Positions 8,208 to 32,127 of a stretch of 32,127 nt of DNA are shown here, piece after piece. Within the stretch, counting starts at the first letter, position 1. Every line of letters begins with the position of its first letter. The notes beneath the pieces are model-generated. The model was given only the letters and a program-made list of their open reading frames with translations, was not told the DNA's origin and made no database searches. The stretch is from Clostridia bacterium. GTDB taxonomy: Bacteria; Bacillota; Clostridia; Oscillospirales; CAG-272. The DNA lies in assembly GCA_017536635.1 (NCBI GenBank), contig JAFXHA010000053.1, positions 1-32,127 on the forward strand. Direction: 5' to 3'. The position numbers and the translations under genes are program-made.

Positions 8208-8235
8208 TTGACAAATTTTTTCTTTATGGTATAAT
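8208..8235 (+). promoter_or_regulatory. Promoter of the CNNM / AI-2E membrane operon
   Basis: A consensus -35 box TTGACA (8208-8213) and a consensus -10 box TATAAT (8230-8235) are separated by 16 bp, with TGG before the -10. It is among the strongest promoters in the window and lies about 230 bp before the first start codon, so the transcript has a long leader. Confidence 0.82.
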
Positions 8236-8466
8236 ATCTAATAATAAGAACAAAGTTCTTAAATCTATTTGATTATTTGGAGTATAAAAGTGGATAGCGA
8301 CGGGAGTTGTCGAAGTCGACGTTTCTGTATCTTGAAAAAACTCAATATTTGATAGTGTGAATGCATAACCTGCGCGCGTAAAAGGCTCAGGCTATGCTTT
8401 TTTGCGTTTTTTTGAAAATACCTGCGATTTACGACATAAATTTTAAAAACAATTTTGGAGAAAATA
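8236..8466 (+). promoter_or_regulatory. Long 5' leader, possible attenuator or riboswitch, upstream of CNNM gene
   Basis: This is the only part of the 328-bp gap between rplS and the next gene not taken by terminator or promoter. It contains possible stems at 8293-8331 (GATA with TATC enclosing CGAC/GTCG at 8298-8301 and 8309-8312) and ends with a terminator-like hairpin at 8363-8397 followed by T runs, still about 65 bp before the start codon. A terminator inside a leader is the usual sign of transcription attenuation. The sequence does not obviously match the M-box, yybP-ykoY, fluoride or NiCo riboswitch cores as I know them. No convincing leader peptide was chosen. The ligand, if any, is unknown. 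Confidence 0.5.
8363..8403 (+). terminator. Terminator hairpin inside the CNNM operon leader
   Basis: GCATAACCTG (8363-8372) pairs with CAGGCTATGC (8388-8397) with a single A-C mismatch, followed by six T (8398-8403), then GCG and seven more T. It lies between promoter and coding region, so it would stop transcription early unless an alternative fold forms. Confidence 0.65.
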
Positions 8467-15084: not shown

Positions 15085-18000
15085 TTATTTGGATTTTTTT
15101 GAAAGTGTAGGAGTGGTCAGAACACCCGTGCGACGAAGTCTGTACTCATAGGTCCAGGAGCTATCTCGCGTTACCCACGCGGTCGGGCCCTGCCATCTGA
15201 GAATTTCGTCGGCGTCATGAACGTCTCCAAAGCAATTTCGACGCGATACGTAGGTGGTAACCGTAACCGTGTGCTTGCCCTCGGAAAGCTTGCCGATATC
15301 GGCAGAATAGGGGGGATAAGCAACGGTCGCGCGTCTCTCTCCGTCAACCTCCACCGTGTTTGTGGCAGATGCGTAATGAGGGATAGTGATATTTGCCTCG
15401 CACTCGCTGTCGCATTCAACGGGCAGATGATATGATACCGCGCCGCCGTAGAAGGGTAGTCCCTGATATGTAAGATCCGAGAAGCCAAGCTTGTCGGGAA
15501 GCTCGGTTACGGTAAGCAAGCGTCCGACGACCTTGACACCGAACTCGCCGAGCAGGTACATAGCCTCGCAGTTTGATCTTTCGGCAAAGGGGATCGTTAC
15601 GCGAAGGACGTTCTCTCCTTTGTTTAGCTTCGGTAACGCTACCTTACGGATCGAAAGGTCGGTATAGTAGCCAACCGTTGTGTTGTCTATCCTCTCGCCG
15701 TTCCAGATTATCTCGGCGAGCTCCGCATCCTCAAGCGCAAGGTAAGGAGAGTCGTAATCTATGTCGCTGTGGATAGTAAATTCGAGCGTTACCGTGTGCT
15801 CTGCGGGCTTTTGCGGAATTACCCACGGCTGAGCTCTTGAGGTAGGATATCCAAGACGGCGACGAATAGTCGCATCGATGCGCAGTATTTCCTCAGGCCC
15901 CGTCAGCTCCTCGCCGTCAAGCGCGTATTTCGGCATATCGAGCAAAAGCACGTTCGGCTCGGATAGGGTGTAGTCAACTGTCCAGGGAAGCTCGACGGCC
16001 TGCGTGTTGTCGATCACCGGGTCGGGTTCCCACGCGCAGTCATCGTTTGTGTCTTCAAGGAAGATAAGCGCGCTGTCGTAGTCGTAAAGGCTCATAGTGA
16101 TATGAGTTTTATCTCCGCGCGTATCGTATCGTACAGGCTTTATCTCACCCGTCAGAGTATCCCAGAGCTGCGGCTTGAATTTGCCGTTAACGTAGATATG
16201 AATGCCCTGAAGCTTCGCAACGTCCTTGTTGTAGGGCTCGGTGCAGTGCGAGATAAAGAGCCACATTCCGTTTTCGTCGCGTCGGATCTGATGTATAAGA
16301 TTATCGGTGAGGGAACCATTGAAGTTGCGTATCTCGATGGTTCTGTCATCTTGGAGCGCTTCAAGGAGCGCACCCTTGCTGAATGCTATGCGGTGCGAGC
16401 GGTCAAAGAGTACCTTGCCGCGCTCTGAAGGAACTGCGCCCTCGTATTTCGGCGCATCGCCCATAAAGACGAGCTTTCCACCCGCATTTCTGAAGGCTTC
16501 AAGACGCTCAAGCGTTGTGGAGCGAAGCGTTTCACATTCGGGTACGATAACGACGTCATACGCCATTTCGCCGACCTTCAGCGGCGCGCCGCCCTGCTTA
16601 CACTGCTCGGGCAGGAGCGATTCGCAGATGTAGTCGAAATCTATGTTTCCCTTGAGCAGCCAATCGGTTACGTTCATAAAATTACCGTTCAGCTTGTCGC
16701 GCACGAGCTGTGTTTGCTCGTTAGGACCAAAGTGGAGCCAATAGCTCTCTACGGGGTGAATTACCGCAACCTTGACGCAGGGCTTGCCTCGAGTGAGCGC
16801 GGTATTGACTCTGCCGAAATGATCCTCAACGTAGCTGTATTCCTTGTACCACGGGGACTGATAGGAGATGGATGCGGGATAGTCGCGCTTTGCCATGCCT
16901 TTCATAGATACCCAGGAGAGATGATGTACTCGTACAGTAACGCCGAGCGCCGCCTGCCAGTCGCCGTGAAGCTTGTGACCGCGGAAATCAAAATCCCAGC
17001 CCGTAACGCCGTAAAGCTCGCTCATCATACCGGGACGTCCGTACTGATGAACCGCCGACTGACATTGCTTTGCGGTAGTAAACTCTATCCAAGCGCAGAG
17101 CATATCGATCCCGGGAATTCCAAACGAGCGATAAGAGCGCATGCAGTCGCCTATTGCCGCCGTTTGCGAGTGAAGCGTAGGCTCTGCCATCATATGACCC
17201 GTAAGCTCGATGCCGTGGTCGCGGCACCATTTACCGCAGGTGTCGGCAAAAGCCTCGGCAAAGCGTTCGGAAACGTGGTCGTGATAACGGTATCTCGTCA
17301 GCGATACCTTGCCGTCGGGAAGATCCCAGAGAAGCTCGGGTAAGCTGTCCACAAGAGATTCTCCGTAAGCCGCAACGTACGTATCCTCAAGATCGTCGGT
17401 CCAGGGAAGACTTACGTTGCTTTTGCTGTCAGCGAAAGGAAGCGTGCCCTTGCGAGCAAACTGAGGCTCGTCGGTAAATATTGCGGGTACGGTCGTGCCG
17501 AAGTCCTCTCCAACCGTAGCGTAATATTTTTCGTGAGTTATTTCAACGAATTTTTCAATAGCCTTTTTATTGAGGGTGTCAACGTAGGATCTGTTACCGA
17601 ATCTGGGTGTATCTGCGGCTATTTCCCGATATACCGTCCAGAGCGTGCCCTCGATCTCATCTCCCTCGTTTACTTTTTTGTAGGAGCAAAGACACTTGTC
17701 CTTACCGAGAACTACGTCAAATCTGGCGAGTATAACTGTGTTGTCGCGGATCTTGTATTCGGGATCGCAGGAGAAGGTTATAAATCTCTGACGGAACTCG
17801 TCGCCCTCAGTAACGTAGCCACCTGCAAAGCCCGAGGGCCACATATCCTCGTCGTAGAGCCAGGCAAGCATCTCGTTTTCCTTTGCGTGCTCGGTGCAAG
17901 ACTTGACGAGTGCCATAAATTCGTCGGACAGATAGGTCGTTGACATGCCCGCGCGGCAATGCATATGAAAGCCGCCGAGTCCCATTTCCTTGAAAATGTC

Positions 18001-18135
18001 TATCTGGCGTAGCAGTTCTTTTTCTTCAAGATCGCAGTTCCATGCCCAAAATGGTGTTCCGCGATATTCGGCGGTAGGATTTTTGAAAAGCTCTTTGCTA
18101 AGCATTTTTTCGCTTCTGTTATTGTCGTAAAGCAT
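15085..18135 (-). CDS. Large glycoside-hydrolase-like protein (GH106/alpha-rhamnosidase-related clan)
   Basis: Probable carbohydrate-active enzyme of 1016 residues. The N-terminal part (about 20-450) has TIM-barrel character with the motifs TPFWAWNCDLEEKELL (start), GLGGFHMHCRAGM, AWLYDEDMWPSGFAGG, a candidate acidic pair Asp222-Glu223 in IFTDEPQF, and GHMMAEPTLHSQ followed by MMSELYGVTGWDFDFRGHK. The C-terminal half is beta-rich with jelly-roll-like segments (VALPKLNKGENVLRVTIPF). This layout matches glycosyl hydrolases annotated as GH106-like alpha-L-rhamnosidase relatives. There is no signal peptide, so it acts in the cytoplasm on imported oligosaccharides. I chose ATG 18135 because AGGAGG lies 6 bp upstream; the open frame runs further to 18183. 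It is monocistronic, with its own promoter and terminator and no transporter nearby. Substrate is not determined. Confidence 0.8.
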   Translation of the reverse strand: MLYDNNRSEKMLSKELFKNPTAEYRGTPFWAWNCDLEEKELLRQIDIFKEMGLGGFHMHCRAGMSTTYLSDEFMALVKSCTEHAKENEMLAWLYDEDMWPSGFAGGYVTEGDEFRQRFITFSCDPEYKIRDNTVILARFDVVLGKDKCLCSYKKVNEGDEIEGTLWTVYREIAADTPRFGNRSYVDTLNKKAIEKFVEITHEKYYATVGEDFGTTVPAIFTDEPQFARKGTLPFADSKSNVSLPWTDDLEDTYVAAYGESLVDSLPELLWDLPDGKVSLTRYRYHDHVSERFAEAFADTCGKWCRDHGIELTGHMMAEPTLHSQTAAIGDCMRSYRSFGIPGIDMLCAWIEFTTAKQCQSAVHQYGRPGMMSELYGVTGWDFDFRGHKLHGDWQAALGVTVRVHHLSWVSMKGMAKRDYPASISYQSPWYKEYSYVEDHFGRVNTALTRGKPCVKVAVIHPVESYWLHFGPNEQTQLVRDKLNGNFMNVTDWLLKGNIDFDYICESLLPEQCKQGGAPLKVGEMAYDVVIVPECETLRSTTLERLEAFRNAGGKLVFMGDAPKYEGAVPSERGKVLFDRSHRIAFSKGALLEALQDDRTIEIRNFNGSLTDNLIHQIRRDENGMWLFISHCTEPYNKDVAKLQGIHIYVNGKFKPQLWDTLTGEIKPVRYDTRGDKTHITMSLYDYDSALIFLEDTNDDCAWEPDPVIDNTQAVELPWTVDYTLSEPNVLLLDMPKYALDGEELTGPEEILRIDATIRRRLGYPTSRAQPWVIPQKPAEHTVTLEFTIHSDIDYDSPYLALEDAELAEIIWNGERIDNTTVGYYTDLSIRKVALPKLNKGENVLRVTIPFAERSNCEAMYLLGEFGVKVVGRLLTVTELPDKLGFSDLTYQGLPFYGGAVSYHLPVECDSECEANITIPHYASATNTVEVDGERRATVAYPPYSADIGKLSEGKHTVTVTTYVSRRNCFGDVHDADEILRWQGPTAWVTRDSSWTYEYRLRRTGVLTTPTLSKKSK

Positions 18136-18165
18136 TTTTTGCCTCCTGTGCTTAATGATAATACC

Positions 18166-18194
18166 ATTATATATTATTCGCAATTAAAAAGCAA
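18166..18194 (-). promoter_or_regulatory. Promoter of the glycoside hydrolase gene
   Basis: On the minus strand a -35 box TTGCTT (18189-18194) and a -10 box TATAAT (18166-18171) are separated by 17 bp, about 30 bp before the start codon at 18135. Confidence 0.65.
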
Positions 18195-19602: not shown

Positions 19603-19631
19603 TTGACAAAGCACTATTTATAGTGTATAAT
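19603..19631 (+). promoter_or_regulatory. Promoter of the Dlt-like operon
   Basis: A consensus -35 box TTGACA (19603-19608) and a consensus -10 box TATAAT (19626-19631) are separated by 17 bp, which predicts strong expression. An AT-rich stretch of TATATA repeats follows to about 19670. The transcript would begin about 60 bp before the first start codon. Confidence 0.82.
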
Positions 19632-19698
19632 ATAATTTGAGTTAATATATATAGTATATATATTAAATTATTTTTAACGTTAACGGAGGTTTTCCGCT

Positions 19699-20748
19699 TT
19701 GTCATATAAAAGAGATATGGAATTTTTTCGCGATGACAGCGAGCGCTTTCGCCGCAAGCTGACAGGCGCTATTAAGATAACTGTTGCGCTTTTTGCGCTC
19801 ATCGCCGTATTGCTGTCCGTTTTTTTGGTTATAGATATTTCTAACGGCGCGGGCTGGGGCAACACGTCTGACAGCGGTAACGACGATATTGATGCGTCGG
19901 CATCGGGTGATACCAAGCCGCCGGTCATAAAGGGCCCCGCCGACAACACCATATACCTTACCGTCGGCGAGACTATCGCGTATAAAAGCGCGGTAAGCGC
20001 TACCGACGACAGCGGAAGCTGCACGCTCGACGTAACCAATAATAACGTAAATACCGACGTTGCAGGTACTTATTCGGTAACCTATGTTGCAAAAGACGCG
20101 GCGGGCAACAGCTCAAAGCTTACCGTTAAGGTAATGGTCATAAAGAGCGATTACACTAAGGAAATGCTGATGAGCGTGGTCGAGAAGCTTGTGGACAAGC
20201 TCGGTATCACGAGCAATATGACTACGGCTCAGAAGGTGCGCAAGATATACGAGTACGTCAACGATCCCGACAAAAACGGATCAAGCGCGAGAATATATTT
20301 CACCGACGAATCCAATATACCGAACATTGACCGCTCAAAGTGGCAGACCGATTGGATAGAGGAAGCTTACAGAACGCTAAAGCCCCTTGCCGACGGCAAT
20401 TCGAGGACCGAGGGAGACTGCTATTCATATTACGCGGCTTCAAAGGCATTCTTTGAGTATTACGGAATAGATAACAAGGGGATCAAGAGAAACGAAAGCG
20501 GATCTAATATGGCGGGTACTCACTTCTGGTCGATAGTAAACGTGGGAAGTGTATCCGAGCCGGTATGGTATTTTTACGATGCTACGCGCCTTGCAGGAAG
20601 CTTTTCGGACGGTAGTAACGAGTGCTGCCTGCGTACGCTTGACGAGCTCAACTCTTATAAGGCGTCTCAGAGCGGACAATACGGATTTTATTCCTTCGAT
20701 CCGAGCGGATATCCGACAATTTCGACTCACAAAACAGATTTTAATTGA
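19699..20748 (+). CDS. Membrane-anchored Ig-like + transglutaminase-like domain protein
   Basis: First gene of the Dlt-like operon, 349 residues. A short cytoplasmic N-terminus is followed by one transmembrane helix (about 24-47), an acidic Ser/Gly/Asp linker, a DUF5011-type Ig-like domain (about 74-150, beginning PPVIKGPADNTIYLTVGETI), and a C-terminal transglutaminase/protease-like domain with a full candidate triad: Cys241 (EGDCYSYYAA), His275 (GTHFWSIV) and Asp294 (WYFYDATRL). The catalytic domain should lie outside the membrane, so it could crosslink or cleave a surface protein or peptide. The start is TTG at 19699, supported by GGAGGT 8 bp upstream; no in-frame ATG before residue 7 fits. 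The adenylation gene follows after 15 bp. The substrate is unknown. Confidence 0.82.
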   Translation: MSYKRDMEFFRDDSERFRRKLTGAIKITVALFALIAVLLSVFLVIDISNGAGWGNTSDSGNDDIDASASGDTKPPVIKGPADNTIYLTVGETIAYKSAVSATDDSGSCTLDVTNNNVNTDVAGTYSVTYVAKDAAGNSSKLTVKVMVIKSDYTKEMLMSVVEKLVDKLGITSNMTTAQKVRKIYEYVNDPDKNGSSARIYFTDESNIPNIDRSKWQTDWIEEAYRTLKPLADGNSRTEGDCYSYYAASKAFFEYYGIDNKGIKRNESGSNMAGTHFWSIVNVGSVSEPVWYFYDATRLAGSFSDGSNECCLRTLDELNSYKASQSGQYGFYSFDPSGYPTISTHKTDFN

Positions 20749-20763
20749 TTTTAAGGAATACGT

Positions 20764-22272
20764 ATGCAAAAAAACATACTTGAATATCTTGAAAGAACTG
20801 CCGCAAGGCTACCCGATAAAATGGCTTTCTCCGGCGGTAAGGAATCTATGACCTTTGGAGAGGTGCTCTCTCAGGCGCGCTCTATCGGTACGGCGCTCGC
20901 AGAGAGAGGGATATATCGCGAGCCTGTGGTGATCTTTATGGACAAGCATCCGAAAACTGTAACTGCCTTTTGGGGAGTTATTTATTCGGGAAGCTTTTAC
21001 GTCTGCCTTGACGAAAAAATGCCGCGCGCGAGAATCGATGCGATATTGCAGAATCTCTCACCCCGCGCCGTAATAAGTGATAAAAAGAATTTTGAGACGG
21101 CAAAGAGCTTTGGGCTTGAGCACACTATGCTTTACGATGACGTTGCCGAGACCGAGACGGAAAGCGCGCTTCTTGATGAAATACGCGGCAAACAGTGCGA
21201 TACCGACGCGATATACGTCGTCTTTACCTCGGGCTCAACGGGCGTTCCTAAGGGTGTTATAGCTTGTCATCGCTCGGTAATAGATTATACCGAATCACTT
21301 TGCGATGCACTTGAGTTCTCAGAGGATACTGTATTTGCAAATCAGACTCCGCTTTATTTTGACGCACCGCTTAAGGAGCTGATGCCGACCTTAAAGCTCG
21401 GCGCTACGACCTATTTTGTGCCGAAGATGCTCTTTTCTTTCCCCGTGCGTCTTATAGAATTTCTTGATAATTACAAAATAAATACTATTTGCTGGGTGGT
21501 TTCGGCGCTCGTGCAGGTATCAGCGCTCGGTGCGCTTGCATCTCATACGCCGAAATATCTTACCACGGTAGCATTTGGAAGCGAGGTCTTTCCGAAAAAG
21601 CAATATGATCTATGGCGCGAGGCACTGCCCGATGCACGCTTCTTTAATCTTTACGGACCTACCGAGGCAACGGGAATGTCTTGCTATTGGAGAGCCGAGC
21701 GTGAGATCGCCGAGGACGAGCCCATACCGATAGGCCGTCCGTTCGATAACACCGAAATACTTCTGCTTACCGACGAGAATAAGAGAGCAGAGTATGGCGA
21801 GAGCGGCGAGATATGTATTCGAGGCACCTGCGTTACTATGGGATATTACAATAATCCCGAAAAGACCGATGCCGCGTTTACCGTCAATCCTCTGAATAAG
21901 GCTTACAGAGAAATAATATACCGTACGGGAGATATCGGAAGAATAAATGAGTATGGCGAGCTCGTTTTCGTGTGCCGCAAGGATAACCAGATAAAGCATA
22001 TGGGACACCGAATAGAGCTTGGCGAGATAGAGAGCAACGCCGCAAAATGCGACGGCGTGGCGCGCGCCTGCTGCGTTTATAACGACGATAAAAAGGAGAT
22101 AGTCCTTTTCTTTGCGGGCGAGGCCGACGAAAAGAGCGTAGCTTCGTTTATGGCAACGGTCGTGCCGAGATATATGCTTCCCGCAAGGATCGAGCGACTT
22201 GCCGCTCTGCCGCAGACTGATAACGGCAAGATAAACCGTATGGCGCTTAAAGACAGAGCAAAAAATTCTTGA
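20764..22272 (+). CDS. DltA-like amino acid adenylation enzyme (AMP-binding)
   Basis: Stand-alone adenylation enzyme of 502 residues, the size of DltA, which activates D-alanine with ATP and loads a carrier protein. The core motifs are complete: P-loop TSGSTGVPKG (155-164), YGPTEA (297-302), YRTGD (386-390) and the terminal lysine in NGKINR (Lys489). Asp200 in LYFDAPLKEL matches the amino-group-binding Asp of DltA, so an amino acid substrate is likely. At the position of the conserved DltA cysteine (FCGEV, Cys269 in Bacillus cereus), which helps select D- over L-alanine, this protein has glycine (FGSEV, Gly272). It is followed by carrier protein, MBOAT and SGNH genes. D-alanine is the default guess, but another small amino acid is possible. 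Confidence 0.88.
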   Translation: MQKNILEYLERTAARLPDKMAFSGGKESMTFGEVLSQARSIGTALAERGIYREPVVIFMDKHPKTVTAFWGVIYSGSFYVCLDEKMPRARIDAILQNLSPRAVISDKKNFETAKSFGLEHTMLYDDVAETETESALLDEIRGKQCDTDAIYVVFTSGSTGVPKGVIACHRSVIDYTESLCDALEFSEDTVFANQTPLYFDAPLKELMPTLKLGATTYFVPKMLFSFPVRLIEFLDNYKINTICWVVSALVQVSALGALASHTPKYLTTVAFGSEVFPKKQYDLWREALPDARFFNLYGPTEATGMSCYWRAEREIAEDEPIPIGRPFDNTEILLLTDENKRAEYGESGEICIRGTCVTMGYYNNPEKTDAAFTVNPLNKAYREIIYRTGDIGRINEYGELVFVCRKDNQIKHMGHRIELGEIESNAAKCDGVARACCVYNDDKKEIVLFFAGEADEKSVASFMATVVPRYMLPARIERLAALPQTDNGKINRMALKDRAKNS

Positions 22273-22316
22273 ACAAAATAAAAAAGGTAAAAAACCGAAA
22301 GGAAAACTGATATATT

Positions 22317-22544
22317 ATGCAACAGCTTCTTGATATTCTTTCGGGGCTCCACCCCGAAGTAGATTTTGAGACGACCGAGGACCTTATCGACGACGGAATA
22401 CTCGACTCGCTCGATATCGTGTCTATCGTAAGCTCTGTTTATTCAGAGTTTGACGTAACTATTCCGCCCGAGGAGATAATCCCCGAGAATTTCAATTCCG
22501 CCGTAGCTCTTATGGAGCTTATAACGAGACTCGACGAAGAATAA
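22317..22544 (+). CDS. Acyl/peptidyl carrier protein (DltC-like)
   Basis: Carrier protein of 75 residues, close to the length of DltC (about 78). The phosphopantetheine attachment site is Ser31 in DDGILDSLDIVSIVS, a good match to the DSL motif. The rest is acidic and helical, as expected for a four-helix carrier. It should be loaded by the DltA-like enzyme encoded just upstream and present its cargo to the MBOAT protein, whose gene begins 3 bp after this stop codon. An AAAGGA sits 13 bp before the ATG, a rather long distance. No phosphopantetheinyl transferase gene is in the window. DltC is the likeliest name; the loaded group is unproven. Confidence 0.88.
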   Translation: MQQLLDILSGLHPEVDFETTEDLIDDGILDSLDIVSIVSSVYSEFDVTIPPEEIIPENFNSAVALMELITRLDEE

Positions 22545-22547
22545 TAT

Positions 22548-24137
22548 ATGTCCTTTACATCTTATACGTTTATAGCCTTTCTCGGCGTGATGCTGCTTGC
22601 GTATTTTCTGACGTACGGCAAGCGTCAATGGATAACGCTGCTTGTGGGAAGCTATATTTTCTATGCGTTTGCGGGTCTGGATTGCCTTGCGTTCATACTT
22701 ATAACGACGCTCTCGTCCTATCTCGTGTCGAGATTGCTCGGACGTGCGATTGGACGCGAGAGGGCTTTTCTCGAGGCAAACAAGGAGACGCTTGATAAGG
22801 CGCAGAGAAAGGAATATAAGGCAAGATCAAAGAAAAAGAGATTCCGCATATTGCTTTGCGGTCTCTTCTTTAACTTTGGAATACTTGCCGTTCTCAAATA
22901 TTCGGCTTTCGCGGTGCGCAACGTCAATTCGATAATCGGATTGTTTGGTGGAAAAGGCTTTGACGTGCCGTCGCTGCTTTTGCCGCTCGGCATATCCTTT
23001 TATACCTTTCAGACGATGGGATATCTCATCGACGTTTACAGAGGAAAGGTCGCGCCCGAGCGCAATATAGCAAAGCTCGCGCTCTTCGTTTCCTTCTTTC
23101 CGCAGCTTGTTCAGGGACCTATTTCTCTGTATTCCGAGCTTGCCCCCAGCCTTTACGAGCCGCACAAGTTTGACTTGAAAAAGTTCAGCTTCGGTATGCA
23201 GCGCGTTATCTGGGGATATTTCAAAAAGCTGGTTATTGCCGACCGAGTGCTTATCGCTATGAACACTATGCTCGACGCACCCGAGCAGTACGGCGGTGCG
23301 TACGTGCTTCTTTTGATAGTGCTTTACTCGGTGCAGATATATGCCGATTTTACGGGTGGAATCGATATTACTATCGGTATTGCCGAGAGTATGGGTATCA
23401 AGCTTGCCGAGAACTTTGACAGACCTTTTTCTTCAAGGTCTACAAAGGAATATTGGCGCCGTTGGCATATCACGATGGGCAGATGGTTCAGGGAATACAT
23501 ATTCGTTCCGATAGCGACCGTAAAGCCAATGCTGAAGCTCAATAATTTCTGCAAGAACAGAATAGGGGTAAAGGCGGCAAGTAAGGTCGTCGCTTACACC
23601 GCAAGCATAGTTACCTGGTTCGTTACGGGTATCTGGCACGGCGCGGCGTGGAACTTTATCGTTTGGGGACTTCTCAATTGCCTTATAATAATGGTTTCCG
23701 AGTCGCTTGAGCCGCTTTATAAAAAATTCCACGCGAGATTTCCAAAGCTTGCGGGAAACCGCTTTTACGGCGGATTTTGCGCGACAAGGACCTTCTTGCT
23801 TATGGGACTTATCCGTTCGCTCGACTGCTACCGCAACGTTGCTACGACCTTCAGAATGTGGGGAAGTATGCTGACGTTCCGCGGAATTGGCGAGATATTG
23901 GGGGGCGGAATACTCAGGCTCGGACTTGACCTTACAGATATCGTCATAATCCTTTGCGGTATCGCGGTAATGTATGCCGTCAGCAAGATATCGGCGAAAA
24001 CCGACGTGCGCGAGTCGCTTTATGAGCGTCCCGTGCTGTCTGCGATCCTTACCTGCGCCCTGCTTATCTGCGTGATAATGATAGGCAATTACGGCATAGG
24101 CTACGACGCAAGTCAGTTTATTTACGACCAATTTTAA
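22548..24137 (+). CDS. MBOAT family O-acyltransferase (DltB/AlgI-like)
   Basis: Polytopic membrane acyltransferase of 529 residues with about 10-12 hydrophobic segments. The MBOAT core is present: the PLGISFYTFQTMGYLIDVYR block, FFPQLVQGPISLY, FADFTGGIDITIG-type block, RRWHITMGRWFREYIFVPI, and the catalytic histidine His364 in TGIWHGAAWNFIVWG. Family members transfer acyl groups from a cytoplasmic donor to an extracellular polymer. It is longer than canonical DltB (about 400) and nearer to AlgI in size. It is coupled to the carrier protein gene (3 bp gap) and followed 16 bp later by an SGNH protein, the typical partner of both DltB and AlgI types. It should accept the aminoacyl group from the carrier. 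The acceptor polymer is unknown. Confidence 0.9.
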   Translation: MSFTSYTFIAFLGVMLLAYFLTYGKRQWITLLVGSYIFYAFAGLDCLAFILITTLSSYLVSRLLGRAIGRERAFLEANKETLDKAQRKEYKARSKKKRFRILLCGLFFNFGILAVLKYSAFAVRNVNSIIGLFGGKGFDVPSLLLPLGISFYTFQTMGYLIDVYRGKVAPERNIAKLALFVSFFPQLVQGPISLYSELAPSLYEPHKFDLKKFSFGMQRVIWGYFKKLVIADRVLIAMNTMLDAPEQYGGAYVLLLIVLYSVQIYADFTGGIDITIGIAESMGIKLAENFDRPFSSRSTKEYWRRWHITMGRWFREYIFVPIATVKPMLKLNNFCKNRIGVKAASKVVAYTASIVTWFVTGIWHGAAWNFIVWGLLNCLIIMVSESLEPLYKKFHARFPKLAGNRFYGGFCATRTFLLMGLIRSLDCYRNVATTFRMWGSMLTFRGIGEILGGGILRLGLDLTDIVIILCGIAVMYAVSKISAKTDVRESLYERPVLSAILTCALLICVIMIGNYGIGYDASQFIYDQF

Positions 24138-24153
24138 AAAATAAAGGGAATAT

Positions 24154-25170
24154 ATGAAAAAAAGAATTATAATTCTGGTCTGCTCGGCTCTGATCGTAAT
24201 TCTGTTGCTCGGACTTTTACAGGCTCTTGTAGTTCCTAAATACACCGATAACACCGAGGGGTTGCTTATCGGAGAGTATTACGGTGAGACGGGAGAAAAC
24301 GACGTGATAATGGTCGGCGACTGTGAGGTCTACGAGAGCTTTGTGCCCGCCGTGCTTTACGAAAAGTATGGGATAACATCTTACATACGCGGCAGCGCTC
24401 AGCAGCTTGTCTGGCAGTCCTATTATCTGCTTGAGGAGACCTTCAGATATGAGACTCCAAAGGCGGTAGTGTTCAACGTGTACGCGCTTAAATACGGCGA
24501 GCCGCAGGACGAGGCGTACAACAGAATGACGCTTGACGGTATGAAGTGGTCGGGGGCGAAATACGATGCCATTAAGGCTTCTATGACCGAGGGCGAAAAT
24601 ATGCTTGATTACGCGATGCCGTTGCTTCGCTTCCATTCTCGTATAACAGAGCTGAATTCGGACGATTTTAAATATATGTTTAATGATAAAAAGGTCTCGC
24701 ACAGCGGCTATCTTATGAAAAAAGGCGTGGTGCCGATGCGTGAGGAAGCCGAGAGCGGCAGAGCTCTCCTTGATTACACTCTGCCCGAGACGGCGATGGA
24801 GTATCTTGATAAGATGCGCCAGCTTTGCGAGGAGAATGACGCTGAGCTTATTCTCGTGAAAGCACCGACGAATACCTGGGGCTTCTGGTGGTACGACGAG
24901 TGGGATGCGCAGGTAAGCGAGTATGCCGAAAATAACGGACTTGCTTATTATAACTTTATAAAATGCAGGGACGAGATCGGAATTGATTTCGCGACCGATA
25001 CCTACGACGAGGGAATGCATCTCAACGTGTACGGCGCAGAAAAGCTGACCGAATATTTCGGAAATATACTTGTTTCCGATCACGGACTTGGAGATGCTAC
25101 GCATTCTCAGGACGTGCTTGACAGATGGCAGGCGAATATCGACGCTTATTATAAGGAAAGAAATTCTTAA
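24154..25170 (+). CDS. SGNH/DltD-like membrane-anchored protein with Cys at nucleophile position
   Basis: Protein of 338 residues with an N-terminal signal anchor (about 4-26) and an extracellular SGNH-like domain. Block I reads MVGDCEVYESF, with Cys57 where Ser of GDS is expected. The last block is TYDEGMHLN with His289 and either Asp285 or Glu286 as partner; in the usual DxxH spacing the partner would be Glu286. It is shorter than DltD (about 400) but in the same operon position, after the MBOAT, and should finish the transfer of the activated group to the outside polymer. The stretch IRGSAQQLVWQSYYLLEETF is highly characteristic of this Clostridia group. A thiol-based mechanism or loss of hydrolysis is possible. 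GGGA precedes the ATG. Confidence 0.8.
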   Translation: MKKRIIILVCSALIVILLLGLLQALVVPKYTDNTEGLLIGEYYGETGENDVIMVGDCEVYESFVPAVLYEKYGITSYIRGSAQQLVWQSYYLLEETFRYETPKAVVFNVYALKYGEPQDEAYNRMTLDGMKWSGAKYDAIKASMTEGENMLDYAMPLLRFHSRITELNSDDFKYMFNDKKVSHSGYLMKKGVVPMREEAESGRALLDYTLPETAMEYLDKMRQLCEENDAELILVKAPTNTWGFWWYDEWDAQVSEYAENNGLAYYNFIKCRDEIGIDFATDTYDEGMHLNVYGAEKLTEYFGNILVSDHGLGDATHSQDVLDRWQANIDAYYKERNS

Positions 25171-25182
25171 AGGAGAAATAAA

Positions 25183-25710
25183 ATGAAGATAGCAAAGAGA
25201 ATATCTCTCATACTCGCGGCGCTCTGCCTGCTTGTAAGCCTTATTGCGTGCGACACAGGCAAGGGAACTACCGCAAATACGAGTGAAGATACAGAGAACG
25301 TGGGTGGTGTGAGCTACTACGTAAACTACAACGGCACAAAGATAACTCTCGGCGGTGCGGCAGACGCGACCGTCTCGGCACTCGGTACCCCCCAGAGCAA
25401 GAGTGAGCTCGGCAACTGTGGCGGCCTCGGAAGTCAGGTGAAGTACACCTATTCCTCAATATACGTTTACGTTCTTGAGACGGATTCGGGCAACACCATC
25501 GACCAGATAGAGTTCCGCGACGACCTCGTATCCACACCCGAGGGCGTGTCCATAGGCATGTCTAAAAGCGATGTGCTTGCAAAGTGCGGCGAGGCAAGTG
25601 CCGAGTCTGCTACTTCACTGACGTATACGAGCGGAAAGCTTAATCTCTCTATCGGATTTGACGCTAACGGAACGGTAAATAAGATAGCTTATATCCGCGA
25701 TGGAGTGTAA
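25183..25710 (+). CDS. Lipoprotein with two tandem BamE-like repeats
   Basis: Secreted lipoprotein of 175 residues with lipobox SLIAC (Cys23 lipidated) and a Thr/Ser/Glu-rich linker. The mature part appears to hold two copies of a small alpha-beta module: residues about 50-113 (TLGGAADATVSALGTP to DQIEFRDD) and about 118-175 (SIGMSKSDVLAKCGEA to NKIAYIRD). Each has a G-x3-V-LG/KCG-P/EA helix start followed by a beta sheet ending in an I-x-F/Y-R-D strand, like the SmpA/BamE fold. I do not recognise a named family. AAGGAG lies upstream, and it is the last gene of the Dlt-like operon, before the terminator. It could be an accessory or scaffold for the surface reaction. Confidence 0.75.
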   Translation: MKIAKRISLILAALCLLVSLIACDTGKGTTANTSEDTENVGGVSYYVNYNGTKITLGGAADATVSALGTPQSKSELGNCGGLGSQVKYTYSSIYVYVLETDSGNTIDQIEFRDDLVSTPEGVSIGMSKSDVLAKCGEASAESATSLTYTSGKLNLSIGFDANGTVNKIAYIRDGV

Positions 25711-25728
25711 ATTAAATATATAAATATT

Positions 25729-25758
25729 TCTCCGCGCCATGTGCGCGGAGATTTTTTT
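25729..25758 (+). terminator. Terminator of the Dlt-like operon
   Basis: TCTCCGCGC (25729-25737) pairs perfectly with GCGCGGAGA (25743-25751) around a 5-nt loop, followed by seven T (25752-25758). It lies 18 bp after the lipoprotein stop codon. Confidence 0.92.
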
Positions 25759-26004: not shown

Positions 26005-27090
26005 TTGGCAAAAAGCAACTCCTCGGAGCTCAGCGAAAGAAAAAAGTTAATACTTAAAGCTATCGTCGAGGCACATATCGAGGGCGGTGAACCGGTCGGC
26101 TCAAAGGCAATAGTGAGCAGCAATATGCTGTCCTGCTCGTCAGCAACCATTCGTAATGAGATGGCGGAGCTTGAGCAAATGGGTTATCTTCAGCAGCCTC
26201 ACACTTCGGCAGGCAGAGTGCCAAGTGAGGCAGGATACCGCTTCTACGTCGATTCACTCGTCGAGCAGTACGAGAGAACCACACGCGAGGTCGGACAGAT
26301 AAACCGTCTGCTTCAGCTTAAAATGGCGGAGATAGATCAGATACTTGAAACGGCGTCAAAGCTCGCGTCGGCAATGACCAATTATACGGGAATCGCGATA
26401 AAGCCTAAGGCTTCGTCGGTTACAATGTCAAAGATCGAGGTCATCGCAATAGACACCACGCATTTTGCAATGGTGCTTATAACCTCGAGCGGATCGGTCA
26501 AGACCAAAAAGGTCAAGGTCGACAGAGCATTTCCCGACTATGCGCTCGCAAGGCTTTCAGAGCTTCTTAACTCAATGATCTGCGGACTTTCAAACGATAT
26601 GATAACGTTACCGATCATTATGAGAATGGAAGCCGAGATGAGAGACGAGAGCTTCCTTGTCGGACCCGCTATAAAGTGCATTTACGAGGTTATGAACGAG
26701 ATAGACGGCGGAGAGCTGAGATATACGGGCATCAATCATTTGCTTAAGTATCCGGAGTATGCGGATACACATCAGCTTGGACAGCTGCTCGGTACGCTTG
26801 AAAATCAGGATGAGATACTTGATCTTGTTTCAACGAGCGAGGGCGACGGAATCAACGTGCTTATCGGCTCGGAGAGCTCGGTCAAGGTAATGAATAACTC
26901 GGCGCTCGTGTTCCAGCCGATCAAGGTTGACGGCAAAACGGTGGGAGTTATCGGAGTTCTCGGCCCTCGTCGAATGAATTACAAGCAGGTGCTTCAGACC
27001 ATCGGCGAGATAGGTGGAAGCATATCGAGTATGATGAACGATGAAAAGGCTCTCACGGATGAAATAAAAACCAAAGGAGATACAAACTGA
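26005..27090 (+). CDS. hrcA: Heat-inducible transcription repressor HrcA
   Basis: DNA-binding repressor of class I heat-shock genes, acting on the CIRCE site found just upstream. The 361 residues are slightly longer than the usual 340-350. The N-terminal winged helix holds LSERKKLILKAIVEAHIEGG, then EPVGSKAIV and the recognition segment SSATIRNEMAELEQMGYLQQ, followed by PHTSAGRVPSEAGYRFYVD, a strong HrcA signature. The C-terminal dimerisation part contains GVIGVLGPRRMNYKQVL. The start is TTG at 26005, chosen because AGGTGA lies 6 bp upstream and the protein begins in step with the family; no earlier ATG fits. It leads the operon hrcA-grpE-dnaK-dnaJ-prmA and is autoregulated. Confidence 0.97.
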   Translation: MAKSNSSELSERKKLILKAIVEAHIEGGEPVGSKAIVSSNMLSCSSATIRNEMAELEQMGYLQQPHTSAGRVPSEAGYRFYVDSLVEQYERTTREVGQINRLLQLKMAEIDQILETASKLASAMTNYTGIAIKPKASSVTMSKIEVIAIDTTHFAMVLITSSGSVKTKKVKVDRAFPDYALARLSELLNSMICGLSNDMITLPIIMRMEAEMRDESFLVGPAIKCIYEVMNEIDGGELRYTGINHLLKYPEYADTHQLGQLLGTLENQDEILDLVSTSEGDGINVLIGSESSVKVMNNSALVFQPIKVDGKTVGVIGVLGPRRMNYKQVLQTIGEIGGSISSMMNDEKALTDEIKTKGDTN

Positions 27091-27092
27091 TA

Positions 27093-27704
27093 ATGGAAGA
27101 AAAGGTTACGCCAAACGAGGAGATCGTAAACGAGGCGACAGAGCAGGCCGAAGCAGAGGTCAGCGAGGAGCTGGCACCTGAGACAGAGGAGTGCGAAAAG
27201 GCTTCCCGCGGCGACAAAAAGAAGCTCAAAAAAGCCGAGGCTGAGATCGAAAGACTTACCGCGCTTCTGGCGGATAAGGAAAAAGAGCTTTCTGAGGCAA
27301 GCGACAAATATATGAGGCTTTACGCCGAATACGACAACTTCCGACGCCGCACGGCGCTTGAAAAGGAAGGAATATACTCCGATGCTTACGTTGATGCGCT
27401 GACGCAGATATTGCCAATACTCGACAATATGGAGAGAGCGGCACAGTTCAGCCCCGAGGATGCGGAGTCTCCCATCGCAAAGGGAATCGCGCTTACCGTA
27501 AAGAGCTTTGCGGAAACGCTCTCGAAGATGGGCGTTGAGGAGATCGAGGCGCTTGGCGCACAGTTCGATCCCAATCTTCATAACGCGGTAATGCACGTCG
27601 ATGACGAGCAGTACGGTGAAAATGAGATCGTCGAGGTGCTTATGAAGGGTTATAAGCGCGGCGACAAGGTGCTCCGTTACTCAATGGTAAAGGTAGCAAA
27701 CTAA
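27093..27704 (+). CDS. grpE: Nucleotide exchange factor GrpE
   Basis: Exchange factor that releases ADP from DnaK. The 203 residues include a long acidic N-terminal region (about 1-45), then a Lys/Glu-rich coiled coil (about 45-85) and the conserved YAEYDNFRRRTALEK helix, then the beta domain with VEEIEALGAQFDPNLHNAVM and GYKRGDKVLRYSMVKVAN, the usual GrpE ending. The ATG is 2 bp after the hrcA stop codon, and a GGAG lies 13 bp upstream within the end of hrcA, so translation may be coupled. It belongs to the CIRCE-controlled heat-shock operon and is followed 61 bp later by dnaK. Confidence 0.97.
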   Translation: MEEKVTPNEEIVNEATEQAEAEVSEELAPETEECEKASRGDKKKLKKAEAEIERLTALLADKEKELSEASDKYMRLYAEYDNFRRRTALEKEGIYSDAYVDALTQILPILDNMERAAQFSPEDAESPIAKGIALTVKSFAETLSKMGVEEIEALGAQFDPNLHNAVMHVDDEQYGENEIVEVLMKGYKRGDKVLRYSMVKVAN

Positions 27705-27765
27705 TAACGAAAAAAATTAAACAAAAATAAATTTAAAAAATTTAAATCCCAAGGAGGAAATTATT

Positions 27766-29595
27766 ATGGGAAAGATCATAGGAATAGATTTAGGAACAAC
27801 TAACTCTTGCGTAGCAGTTTTTGAGGGAACCGACCCCATCGTTATACCTAACCCCGAAGGAGCTCGTACGACTCCCTCGGTAGTAGCATTTACAAAGACC
27901 GGCGAGAGAATGGTAGGTCAGGTCGCAAAGCGTCAGGCTATCACCAACCCCGACAGAACTATCTCAAGTATCAAGAGAGAGATGGGAAGCTCTTACAAGA
28001 AGGACATCGACGGTAAGTCCTACACTCCCCAGGAGATCTCCGCAATGGTGCTCCAGAAGCTCAAGGCTGATGCTGAGGCATATCTCGGCTCTCCCGTAAC
28101 TCAGGCGGTTATTACCGTTCCCGCATACTTTACCGATGCTCAGAGACAGGCAACCAAGGACGCAGGTAAGATCGCAGGACTTGATGTACTTCGTATAATC
28201 AACGAGCCTACCGCGGCTGCTCTTGCTTACGGTATGGATAAGGAAGCAGACCAGAAGATACTCGTATTCGACCTCGGCGGCGGAACCTTTGACGTTTCCG
28301 TTCTTGAGATCTCCGACGGCGTATTCGAGGTTCTCGCAACCAAGGGTAACAACAAGCTCGGCGGCGACGACTTCGACCAGAGAGTAATCAATTGGATCGC
28401 AGATAAGTTCAAGGCAGAGAACGGACTTGATGTCCGCGGAGATAAGATGGTAATGCAGAGACTCAAAGAGGCTGCAGAGAAGGCAAAGATCGAGCTTTCG
28501 GGTATGACCAGCACGAACATCAACCTTCCTTACCTTACCGCAACCGCTGCAGGTCCTCTCCACTTTGATGCAACACTTACCAGAGCGGAGTTCGACAGAA
28601 TCACCGCTGATCTCGTAGAGAACACGATGACACCCACCAGAGATGCGCTCTCCGATGCAGGACTTTCCGCTTCTCAGATCGACAAGGTGCTTCTCGTAGG
28701 CGGTTCTACAAGAATTCCCGCAGTTCAGGAAGCAGTTAAGAAGTTCCTCGGAAAAGAGCCCTTCAAGGGCATCAACCCCGACGAGTGCGTAGCGATCGGT
28801 GCGGCAATTCAGGGCGGCGTTCTCGGCGGCGACGTTAAGGACCTTCTCCTTCTCGACGTAACTCCTCTGTCTCTCGGAATCGAGACTCTCGGCGGAGTAT
28901 TCAATAAGATAATCGAAAGAAACACCACTATCCCCGTAAAGAAGAGCCAGGTATATTCTACCGCGGCTGACGGACAGACGTCTGTTCAGATCCACGTTCT
29001 TCAGGGTGAGCGTGAGATGGCGGCTTATAACACCACGCTCGGCCAGTTTATTCTTGACGGAATCCCCGCAGCACCCCGCGGAGTTCCTCAGATCGAGGTA
29101 ACCTTTGATATCGACGCTAACGGTATCGTTAACGTTTCCGCAAAGGATCTCGGAACCGGCAAGGAGCAGAACGTAACCATCACTTCTTCCTCGAATATGT
29201 CCAAGGAAGATATCGAAAAGGCAGTTAAGGATGCAGAGAAATTTGCTGAAGAGGACAGAAAGCAGAAGGAAGCGGTAGATACCAAGAACCACGCTGACAG
29301 TCTTATCTTCCAGTCCGAGAAGGCGCTCGGTGAGATCGGCGACAAGCTGCCCGAGGCTGACAAGGAAGAGGTCAAGAGCGCAATAGAGAAGCTCAAGACT
29401 ACTGTTGCAGGCGGAGATACCGCTGCTATCAAGGCAGATACCGAGGCTCTTGAGAAGGCATTCTACGCACTCTCCGAGAAGCTCTATAAGCAGAGCGGCG
29501 CTGCAGGTGCAGGTGCTGACGCAGGTGCAGAGGGTACTGAGGGTGGCGACGGAACCTACTACAACGCAGAGTACGAGGATAAGACCGAGCAATAA
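27766..29595 (+). CDS. dnaK: Molecular chaperone DnaK (Hsp70)
   Basis: Hsp70 ATPase chaperone for nascent and damaged proteins. The 609 residues are typical of Gram-positive DnaK, which lacks part of the loop found in the ATPase domain of Gram-negative forms. Signatures are [16 protein letters not shown] at the N-terminus, [15 protein letters not shown], and [19 protein letters not shown]. The substrate domain follows ([16 protein letters not shown], then [15 protein letters not shown]), and the C-terminus is a helical lid with an Ala/Gly-rich, acidic tail ending DKTEQ. An excellent AAGGAGG site precedes the ATG, fitting high expression. It is regulated by HrcA/CIRCE. A hairpin without T run follows before dnaJ. 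Confidence 0.99.
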
Positions 29596-30849: not shown

Positions 30850-31635
30850 ATGGATAAGGATTATGTTTGCGAGGATTGGGGAACCGAGAGCGAATGGACA
30901 CAGATAAAGGTTACCGTTCCGCTCGAGCAAAGAGATGCGACCGCGGACGTGATGAGTATGATATCGAATTATCTTCAGATAGAGGATTACAGCGATATCG
31001 ATCTCAAGACCTGCTACGGCGATCTTATCGACGAAAAGATACTTAACGCCGATAAAACGATAGCCTCAATATCGGTGTATCTTCCTGCGCAGAACGGCGT
31101 TGCCGATACTCTGGTGTTTCTCAAGGAGAGATTTTCTTCGCTTGCTATCGATGCAAAGATCGAGATAAGCGGCGTTAATGAAGAGGATTGGGCGAACTCC
31201 TGGAAGGCTTATTATAAGCCGATAGAGATAGGTGAGAGAATAGTTATCGTTCCCGCTTGGGAAAAATACAGCGGTAGCGCTGACAAGATACTCGTCAGAA
31301 TGGATCCGGGTATGGCGTTCGGAACGGGAAGCCACGAAACGACCCGTCTCGTTATCACGCTCCTTGAAAAATACATCAAGGGATCGGATCAGAGAGTCCT
31401 TGACGTTGGCTGCGGTAGCGGAATACTTGCCATTTGCGCAGCAAAGCTCGGTGCCGGCGAGTGTAAGGCGTACGATATCGATCCCGTTGCCGTCAAGGTC
31501 GCAAGAGAGAATATCAAGGATTCGGGGCTTGAGGAAAAGGTTACCTGCGATCGCTCTGACTTGCCTTTCCATCAAATACCAGTTTTACGTCTTTTTCGAA
31601 TTTTTCTAGCTTTCTCTGATACTCTTCTTCATTAA
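30850..31635 (+). CDS. prmA: Ribosomal protein L11 methyltransferase PrmA, broken at about 31560
   Basis: PrmA trimethylates ribosomal protein L11 using SAM, and its gene follows dnaJ in many Firmicutes. The N-terminal domain begins with WTQIKVTVPLEQRDATADVM, and the catalytic start is clear: MDPGMAFGTGSHETTRLVI, then the SAM loop DVGCGSGILAICAAKLGA and AYDIDPVAVKVARENI. After EEKVTCDRSDL (about residue 237) the expected NI(L/I)A catalytic block and the last 70 or so residues are missing. They are replaced by an unrelated tail (PFHQIPVLRLFRIFLAFSDT) that is the antisense of a different gene. The product would be inactive. I chose ATG 30850, with AGGA 8 bp upstream; ATG 30841 is too close to that site. 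Confidence 0.85.
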   Translation: MDKDYVCEDWGTESEWTQIKVTVPLEQRDATADVMSMISNYLQIEDYSDIDLKTCYGDLIDEKILNADKTIASISVYLPAQNGVADTLVFLKERFSSLAIDAKIEISGVNEEDWANSWKAYYKPIEIGERIVIVPAWEKYSGSADKILVRMDPGMAFGTGSHETTRLVITLLEKYIKGSDQRVLDVGCGSGILAICAAKLGAGECKAYDIDPVAVKVARENIKDSGLEEKVTCDRSDLPFHQIPVLRLFRIFLAFSDTLLH

Positions 31636-32127
31636 ACATCAAGATGTTTTCTTCCAACTCATCATTGTTTTGAGCAACACTATATGGCATTTCTGTATCG
31701 ATACTTGGAGTCATATCCTTATTATTTTTTACAACAGCTTTTGAATCAAGAGACATATTCCACTGCATACCACCACGGTCTTTCATATACTTTTCTATAT
31801 CATCTGCATAGAGAAATACCGGCATATGTGCATAACTTGCATCCACCGCTACACTGGAATAATCTGTAATACAGACATCCATTGCCGCCAAGATTTCTGA
31901 CATGTCATCTCTTTGACTCTCATCAATGAGACGTCCTTTTAATGCTTCGTTTTCATAACCTTTAAATCCTGCTGCCAATTGTGGATGCATTCTCAAGCAA
32001 AGATACCATTCACCGCCGAATCGTACTGTTAAGTTCTTTAATAGTCGTGCGAAATCCATTGTCCAGATTTCGGAGAAAACAATACGCTTGCCATCTACAG
32101 AACCTTCACGGAATGTAGGAGCATACA
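31541..32127 (-). CDS. CDP-glycerol glycerophosphotransferase (TagF/TagB-like), partial
   Basis: C-terminal part of an enzyme that polymerises or primes glycerol-phosphate (teichoic acid type) chains at the inner face of the membrane. The frame is open to the last base of the window and reads YAPTFREGSVDGKRIVFSEI before the first in-frame ATG (32059), so that ATG is internal. Family motifs are LCLRMHPQLA and ITDYSSVAVDASYAHMPVFL, then YADDIEKYMKDRG. It ends EKFEKDVKLVFDGKAS, then a few residues (QSDRR) that come from the prmA side of the junction, so the true C-terminus is also cut. The DNA is much richer in A+T than the rest of the window. Substrate could be glycerol- or ribitol-phosphate related. 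Confidence 0.8.
   Translation of the reverse strand, partial: YAPTFREGSVDGKRIVFSEIWTMDFARLLKNLTVRFGGEWYLCLRMHPQLAAGFKGYENEALKGRLIDESQRDDMSEILAAMDVCITDYSSVAVDASYAHMPVFLYADDIEKYMKDRGGMQWNMSLDSKAVVKNNKDMTPSIDTEMPYSVAQNNDELEENILMFNEEEYQRKLEKFEKDVKLVFDGKASQSDRR
31551..31570. other. Junction between prmA and an unrelated AT-rich gene fragment
   Basis: On the left the plus-strand prmA frame is homologous up to about DRSDL; on the right the minus-strand glycerophosphotransferase frame is homologous down to about FDGKAS. The two signals meet within this 20-bp interval, with no repeat, target duplication or integrase gene. Both genes are broken at the same point, which is the sign of a chimeric join or a deletion/inversion breakpoint. 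Confidence 0.75.

Follow-up and report, generated by a model that had tools for sequence, protein, structure and literature searches.

A conserved six-gene cassette of gut Clostridia, predicted to place an acidic amino acid on the cell envelope

Does an operon that encodes the same kinds of proteins as the Dlt system of D-alanylation also carry out the same reaction? The question is raised by a locus in the genome of a member of the Clostridia (assembly GCA_017536635.1, order Oscillospirales), on contig JAFXHA010000053.1, whose 32,127 nucleotides constitute the window analyzed here. Six plus-strand open reading frames (ORFs) at positions 19699-25710, separated by gaps of 15, 44, 3, 16, and 12 bases, encode a transglutaminase-like protein (TG), an amino-acid-adenylating ligase (A), a small carrier protein (C), an MBOAT protein (B), an SGNH-type protein (S), and a lipoprotein (L). 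A sequence-only reading of the window had placed these genes between one promoter and one terminator and had suggested that they modify a surface polymer or protein, by aminoacylation or otherwise, in a manner unlike D-alanylation. Coordinates, strand, and short gaps agree with our ORF calls, and the proposed kind of modification is supported by separate protein clades and by gene linkage, with a polymer as the presumed point of attachment. We find that the six genes are a conserved cassette in many gut Clostridia, and we read them not as a Dlt operon but as a variant form of MBOAT-SGNH acylation. Judged from its proteins, the operon probably specifies a carrier-protein-dependent MBOAT-SGNH system that places an acidic amino acid, most likely Asp and probably D-Asp, on a component of the envelope. 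Beyond what had been proposed for the window, we observed racemase and asparagine-synthase partners, an acidic-type ligase pocket, a shuttle motif fused to the MBOAT, and a Cys in the SGNH protein. The open-licence literature (CC0/CC BY/CC BY-SA) yielded no description of the gene set; the set is apparently undescribed.

A conserved gene cassette

An MBOAT scan of one genome per species gave at least 582 confirmed relatives, and we analyzed the best 80 of the 582 loci, chosen by MBOAT similarity. ORFs were called in each locus and then labelled with profiles that were built iteratively, starting from the proteins of the window's six genes; linkage was counted over the 49 of the 80 loci that have at least 4.5 kb on each side of the MBOAT gene. 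Genes C, B, and S are present in all 49, A in 48, TG in 47, and L in 44. The transglutaminase-like and lipoprotein genes, whose linkage the sequence-only reading had proposed to check, thus stay with the cassette, and linkage in 44-49 of 49 loci speaks against a chance neighbourhood. The commonest order, TG-racemase-A-C-B-S-L, occurs in 25 of the 80 loci, followed by the window's own, TG-A-C-B-S-L, in 17; rearranged orders exist among the other loci, many of which are cut by contig ends. The gene order first given for the window, A-C-B-D, was verified as A-C-B-S.

Searches with S across 197 genomes from the order to which the window belongs gave matches of at least 335 bits in 10, one of them the window's own genome. 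In eight of the other nine, the stretches with a strong SGNH match carry A, C, B, S, and TG without exception, and L in seven. Matches at 1e-60 came from three of the 398 genomes of a phylum sample (the window's own again among them) and from 41 of 200 genomes of another clostridial family (f52), 35 of these reaching at least 454 bits. The set is patchy, since no strong match to S was found among the 12 other genomes listed for the window's own family. Anaerocolumna sp. AGMB13025 (L069) carries the cassette, and because this is a named, complete genome the gene set is testable. Contigs labelled Anaerolineaceae and Gastranaerophilales (L044 and L074) also carry it, inside clades of clostridial rows, which may reflect transfer or mislabelled contigs. 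At one further locus the ligase gene is broken into two ORFs (L082:5215-6747).

Two additional genes recur as partners. The first, encoding a protein of about 238 amino acids and usually lying between TG and A, is an aspartate-type amino-acid racemase; the two proteins scanned score 217 and 214 bits on TIGR00035 (cut-off 93.1), and their aspartate-type scores are far above those on glutamate-racemase models. The second encodes a glutamine-dependent asparagine synthase of about 612 amino acids (436 and 438 bits on TIGR01536, cut-off 267.1, in the two proteins scanned) and is linked in 14 of the 80 loci. Among the 49 loci, 26 have the racemase, eight the synthase, and four both. The window's own genome has one racemase of the same family on another contig (L147:8281-10552), directly before a gene that we read from its sequence as a MurE-like ligase. 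When the 423 remaining neighbour ORFs were clustered, no family extended beyond six of the 80 loci, hence they give no hint to the acceptor. The most frequent of these extra neighbours are ABC-transporter ATPases (six loci), and then genes of the dnaK region, which flank the cassette in the window too.

The core proteins and their Dlt counterparts

The window ligase scores 325.5 bits on the general amino-acid-adenylation model TIGR01733 and passes its cut-off of 317.4; on the DltA equivalog TIGR01734 it reaches 267.6 bits against a cut-off of 559.85. On the DltC equivalogs the carrier reaches 31.6 bits (NF003464, cut-off 68) and 19.9 bits (TIGR01688, cut-off 52.35), and its Asp-Ser pair is kept in 82 of 82 carriers. 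The MBOAT has 145 bits on the DltB equivalog TIGR04091 (cut-off 375) and, as noted earlier for this locus, is longer than DltB, with 529 amino acids against 381-395 in five canonical clostridial DltB proteins. DltB itself is over the cut-off in just five of 148 genomes of the class, and no DltA over the cut-off was found in any of 10 system genomes.

Phylogeny gives the same separation. In the ligase tree, 41 system ligases (even-numbered loci plus a few others, size-filtered; support 98/97) stand apart from the five encoded beside canonical DltB (99/98). The MBOAT tree (99 rows), built by a quick method from system rows selected in the same way, with unnamed clostridial MBOATs beside the named loci, places 47 system rows in one clade (support 100) and the five canonical DltB proteins in another (99). 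Other clostridial MBOATs surround the system clade in this tree, and those closest to it adjoin Ser-type SGNH proteins. That the ligase and the MBOAT should fall outside the DltA and DltB clades was a test set beforehand, and both trees bear it out. A second MBOAT of the window's own genome (contig C77, L113:2976-4379) lies outside the gene set and falls elsewhere in the tree.

The motif FxYxxF forms the exact C-terminal end of 88 of 89 system MBOATs, the exception (L034) ending in FIYGDRFR. In the available part of PMC12148441 this motif is described as an acyl shuttle whose Tyr is acylated; in Dlt it sits on DltX, in PatA and further systems it is part of the MBOAT itself, and the fused-shuttle pathways treated there have no carrier protein and are evidently fed by acyl-CoA. 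The present system combines a carrier and a ligase with a shuttle motif that is fused to the MBOAT.

The SGNH protein is distinguished by the residue at its nucleophile position. GDCE, with Cys at this position, is found in all 84 aligned system members, and Ser is found in all 20 outgroup proteins. The 84 rows represent 82 distinct proteins, two pairs being the same protein from two collections; nine of the rows are order-level proteins, a named locus recurring in two of these, and six of the 80 loci are left out for want of an SGNH ORF of at least 280 amino acids (L054, L064, L071, L092, L105, and L111). When the two profiles are aligned with each other, which gives 332 columns at 100% probability, the Cys falls opposite the outgroup Ser. 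Sampling of family f52 gave Cys in the six sequences read of the 35 rows at 454 bits or more, and Ser in the seven read of the eight weaker rows. Ser is described as the nucleophile of the SGNH family in the available part of PMC9487903, where both mentions of cysteine concern disulfides. Block V of the SGNH protein is D-x-x-x-H, with one residue added, and Pfam recognizes Lipase_GDSL_2 at E up to 0.1 in 47 of the 52 members scanned. We infer from these alignments that Cys57 is the nucleophile.

At 338 amino acids, the window's SGNH protein is shorter than DltD, as had been noted; five DltD-like ORFs picked beside canonical DltB have 384-420, taking the first possible start codon and with one ORF (L149) cut at the end of its stretch. 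Scans of the SGNH proteins gave no match to a DltD model, the SGNH profile aligned with the five DltD-like proteins over 48 columns at 14.6% probability, and a PDB profile search with the SGNH protein returned a single short, meaningless match.

The original naming of TG as transglutaminase-like is upheld by its putative triad (Cys241, His275, and Asp294), kept in 65 of 65 aligned proteins, and by Transglut_core, matched in 16 of 21 TG proteins scanned; in the window's own TG protein Pfam detected no transglutaminase core. In a PDB profile search, most matches of TG were to surface or Ig-like domains, and a single weak one was to a cysteine protease. In the lipoprotein, the lipobox Cys is kept in 75 of 77 sequences and a second Cys in 71 of 77. 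Its Pfam matches are weak and inconsistent, DUF7738 being the most shared (13 of 51, E up to 0.1).

Candidate substrate, relay, and competing explanations

The ligase pocket, which we placed by alignment and numbered after the adenylation motifs that it resembles, is nearly invariant. Across 70 ligases, D235 and A236 occur in every one and K239 in 69 (R in one), and further positions are A299 in 66, G301 in 64, L322 and G330 in 70, and M331 in 64; K517 is present in all 68 ligases that reach that position. The five ligases beside canonical DltB have L236, M, S, or A at 239, and C, I, or V at 301. Asp235 and Lys517 are reported to accompany alpha-amino acids (available part of PMC12283262), and basic residues to mark Asp-selecting pockets, the charge being supplied by different residues in Asp and Glu pockets (available part of PMC13126170). 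Because the residue at 239 is basic, an acidic side chain is suggested, and the near-invariant pocket as a whole suggests an acidic alpha-amino acid as the substrate. The first hint of such a substrate was a surfactin Glu code with Lys239, a code that was not found in the available parts of PMC3039948 or PMC12283262. The D form is indicated by the linked racemase. At 235, 236, and 239 the 12 ligases from loci with a synthase do not differ from the 58 others, except for the single R239, whose locus has no synthase; variants at position 301 occur in two of the 12 and four of the 58. That the pocket is the same with or without the synthase suggests that this enzyme acts after loading or elsewhere.

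From the observed gene set, synteny, motifs, conservation, and phylogeny, we infer a substrate and its chirality, a relay, an acceptor, and roles for the two outside proteins. Asp would be adenylated by the ligase and loaded onto the carrier, and the MBOAT would then bring the aminoacyl group through the membrane and attach it to the Tyr in the FxYxxF motif at its own C-terminus. From this Tyr ester the SGNH protein would take over the group as a thioester on Cys57 and hand it to an envelope acceptor. On the outer side, the lipoprotein and the transglutaminase-like protein would act on that acceptor or on the product. In the sub-group with an asparagine synthase, this enzyme would amidate Asp or the product, by analogy with AsnH after RacD and AslA. 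There may be a further twist, although we hold it to be unlikely, in which the SGNH aminoacyl thioester would deliver D-Asp to an amine and form an amide by an extracytoplasmic, ATP-independent transfer, and TG and the Cys-bearing lipoprotein would use or cross-link the residue; the change from Ser to Cys would then imply a change of bond type.

Teichoic acid is unsupported as the acceptor, because the TagA/WecG wall-teichoic family was found in just four of 10 system genomes, some of them incomplete, in a search of which lipoteichoic acid was not part. At the end of the window, a partial minus-strand gene (31631-32125) matches CDP-glycerol glycerophosphotransferase (PF04464, 75 bits); teichoic-acid-type polymers may therefore exist in this genome.

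Several observations weigh against aspartate delivered through an SGNH thioester. The pocket is unlike the Asp code DLTKVGHVGK and identical to none of the Asp or Glu codes compared, the sources of these being available in part; it agrees with the Glu/Gln code DAQDLGVVDK (available part of PMC12283262) at 235, 236, 301, and 517, which is only part of that code, and its position 301 varies in six of the 70 ligases. Lys239 also occurs in two related ligases (L177 and L183) whose SGNH partners carry Ser, so Lys239 and the SGNH Cys are not strictly coupled. Both racemases scanned barely clear the cysteate-racemase cut-off as well (195 and 200 bits against 190). Neither racemase nor synthase is present in 19 of the 49 loci, the window's sub-group included, and the window's own genome (88% complete) has no asparagine synthase over the cut-off. 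Finally, the Pfam scan of the window's SGNH protein gave no SGNH-type match.

Given a pocket that matches no Asp code and the Glu/Gln code in part, the same relay might instead activate Glu, Asn, or another analogue of Asp. The agreement with DAQDLGVVDK, the asparagine synthase linked in 14 of 80 loci, and a racemase over the cysteate cut-off speak for such a substrate; the racemases score far better on aspartate-type than on glutamate-racemase models, and residues 235, 236, and 239, unchanged between the 12 synthase-locus ligases and the 58 others, argue against Asn supplied by the synthase. We give this alternative a minor but real chance. The role assigned to Cys57 can be questioned from another side, since the SGNH protein has a second Cys, C225, that is invariant in 52 of 52 members, and Cys57 might be structural or redox-active, with the Tyr ester reaching the acceptor otherwise. 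However, 99% of the 104 proteins aligned have C225, the Ser-type outgroup included, so it was not gained as a partner of Cys57. The same alignment shows the His and Asp of the putative triad to be conserved (H289 in 100%, D285 in 99%), all 49 loci have the SGNH gene, and we consider a non-nucleophilic Cys57 improbable.

A diverged Dlt operon, with a ligase that loads D-Ala and with lipoteichoic or wall teichoic acid as its target, would likewise be made up of a ligase, a carrier, an MBOAT, and an SGNH protein, and it gains from the fact that DltA, DltC, and DltB are the top-scoring named equivalog models and that D235 is retained. Yet every Dlt model is far under its cut-off, the ligase and the MBOAT form separate clades, K239 and G301 differ from the five canonical ligases, the SGNH profile fails to align with the DltD-like proteins, the linked racemase is Asp-type, and the TagA/WecG count is low. 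We regard this explanation as very improbable. Models, trees, pocket, and SGNH profile likewise speak against a canonical Dlt operon. The reading that we prefer remains the carrier-fed transfer of an acidic amino acid, probably D-Asp, to the envelope.

Operon features, surroundings, and place among known systems

Table 1. Features of the operon in the window.
Feature	Position	Strand	Remarks
Promoter TTGACA-N17-TATAAT	19603..19631	+	12/12 consensus match, sigma-70-type
TG, transglutaminase-like	19699..20748	+	TTG start; CGGAGG at 19684-19689; hydrophobic anchor at the N-terminus, seen by eye; PF16403 Ig-like domain
TG putative triad residues	within 19699..20748	+	Cys241, His275, Asp294
A, amino-acid-adenylating ligase	20764..22272	+	DltA-like, outside DltA; pocket D200/A201/K204 = alignment positions 235/236/239
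C, carrier, 75 amino acids, phosphopantetheine Ser31	22317..22544	+	PF00550 22.8 bits, cut-off 20.8
B, MBOAT, 529 amino acids	22548..24137	+	PF03062
C-terminal FIYDQF (FxYxxF acyl-shuttle motif of MBOAT)	24117..24134	+	Sequence motif
S, SGNH-type, 338 amino acids	24154..25170	+	N-terminal hydrophobic anchor by eye; GDCE block I; D-x-x-x-H Asp285, His289
Cys57 codon, residue opposite SGNH catalytic Ser	24322..24324	+	Alignment
L, lipoprotein	25183..25710	+	Lipobox Cys23; second conserved Cys79; two similar halves by eye
Intrinsic terminator	25729..25758	+	9-pair stem (7 GC) at 25729-25751, then seven T

When the window was simulated 300 times with a first-order Markov model, a perfect TTGACA/TATAAT match arose in one simulation. 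The plus strand of the actual sequence contains two such matches, at 19603 and at 8208, the latter (found with spacing 16-18) upstream of an ORF that starts at 8455. Between 17500 and 28000, promoter-like sites number 19 (shuffles: mean 15.1, standard deviation 3.9) and terminator-like sites 14 (mean 11.4, standard deviation 3.5), no clear excess in either case, so that only the perfect hexamers carry weight. Downstream of the cassette, at 26005-29595, lie hrcA-, grpE-, and dnaK-like genes, and loci L033, L035, L041, and L074 likewise have hrcA-like and dnaK-like genes downstream. A minus-strand ORF of 1032 amino acids (15085-18183) resembles a glycoside hydrolase; we take its likeness to be with GH106-type rhamnosidases.

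The Dlt system (DltA, DltC, DltB, DltD, and DltX) shares with the cassette an adenylating ligase, a discrete carrier, an MBOAT, an SGNH-type protein, and, by motif, an acyl-Tyr shuttle. The cassette differs in its ligase pocket, in its separate ligase and MBOAT clades, and in having Cys for Ser; its shuttle is fused to a longer MBOAT, whereas in the available description of Dlt the shuttle is the separate peptide DltX, and it adds two outside proteins and the Asp-type racemase and asparagine-synthase partners. PatA/PatB and AlgI-type systems are alike, by length and motif, in their longer MBOAT, fused FxYxxF end, and SGNH partner. They are carrier-less and evidently use acyl-CoA, as far as the available part of PMC12148441 describes them, whereas here the carrier occurs in 49 of 49 loci and the ligase in 48, and the SGNH protein has Cys. 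Of the features general to MBOAT-SGNH envelope acylation, the adjacent SGNH protein and FxYxxF are present and the catalytic Ser is absent.

RacD, AslA, and AsnH make the D-Asp/D-Asn bridge of the peptidoglycan of lactic acid bacteria (available part of PMC4155827), and they provide an analogy of parts: an aspartate racemase, an Asp-activating enzyme, and an asparagine-synthase-type amidase. There, an ATP-grasp ligase adds D-Asp intracellularly to peptidoglycan precursors, whereas the adenylating ligase, carrier, and MBOAT found here would imply transfer outside the membrane. Closer in gene content are six clostridial A-C-B-S clusters (L162, L174, L175, L177, L182, and L183), in which ligase, carrier, MBOAT, and SGNH genes also stand together, but with Ser in the SGNH protein and other ligase pockets. 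The stretches of them that were read gave no racemase, TG, or lipoprotein match, save a 28-bit match to the lipoprotein profile in L162. Since Ser replaces Asp235 in L162 and L182, substrates without an alpha-amino group are hinted at for these two.

If the proposed system is as we read it, carrier-fed MBOAT-SGNH systems extend beyond D-alanine, and an SGNH transfer enzyme can work by Cys chemistry. It would also break the two-way split, drawn in the available part of PMC12148441, between Dlt (carrier and DltX) and the rest (acyl-CoA and fused shuttle). For the cells that carry the cassette, a carboxylate-bearing amino acid would alter the surface charge otherwise than D-alanine does.

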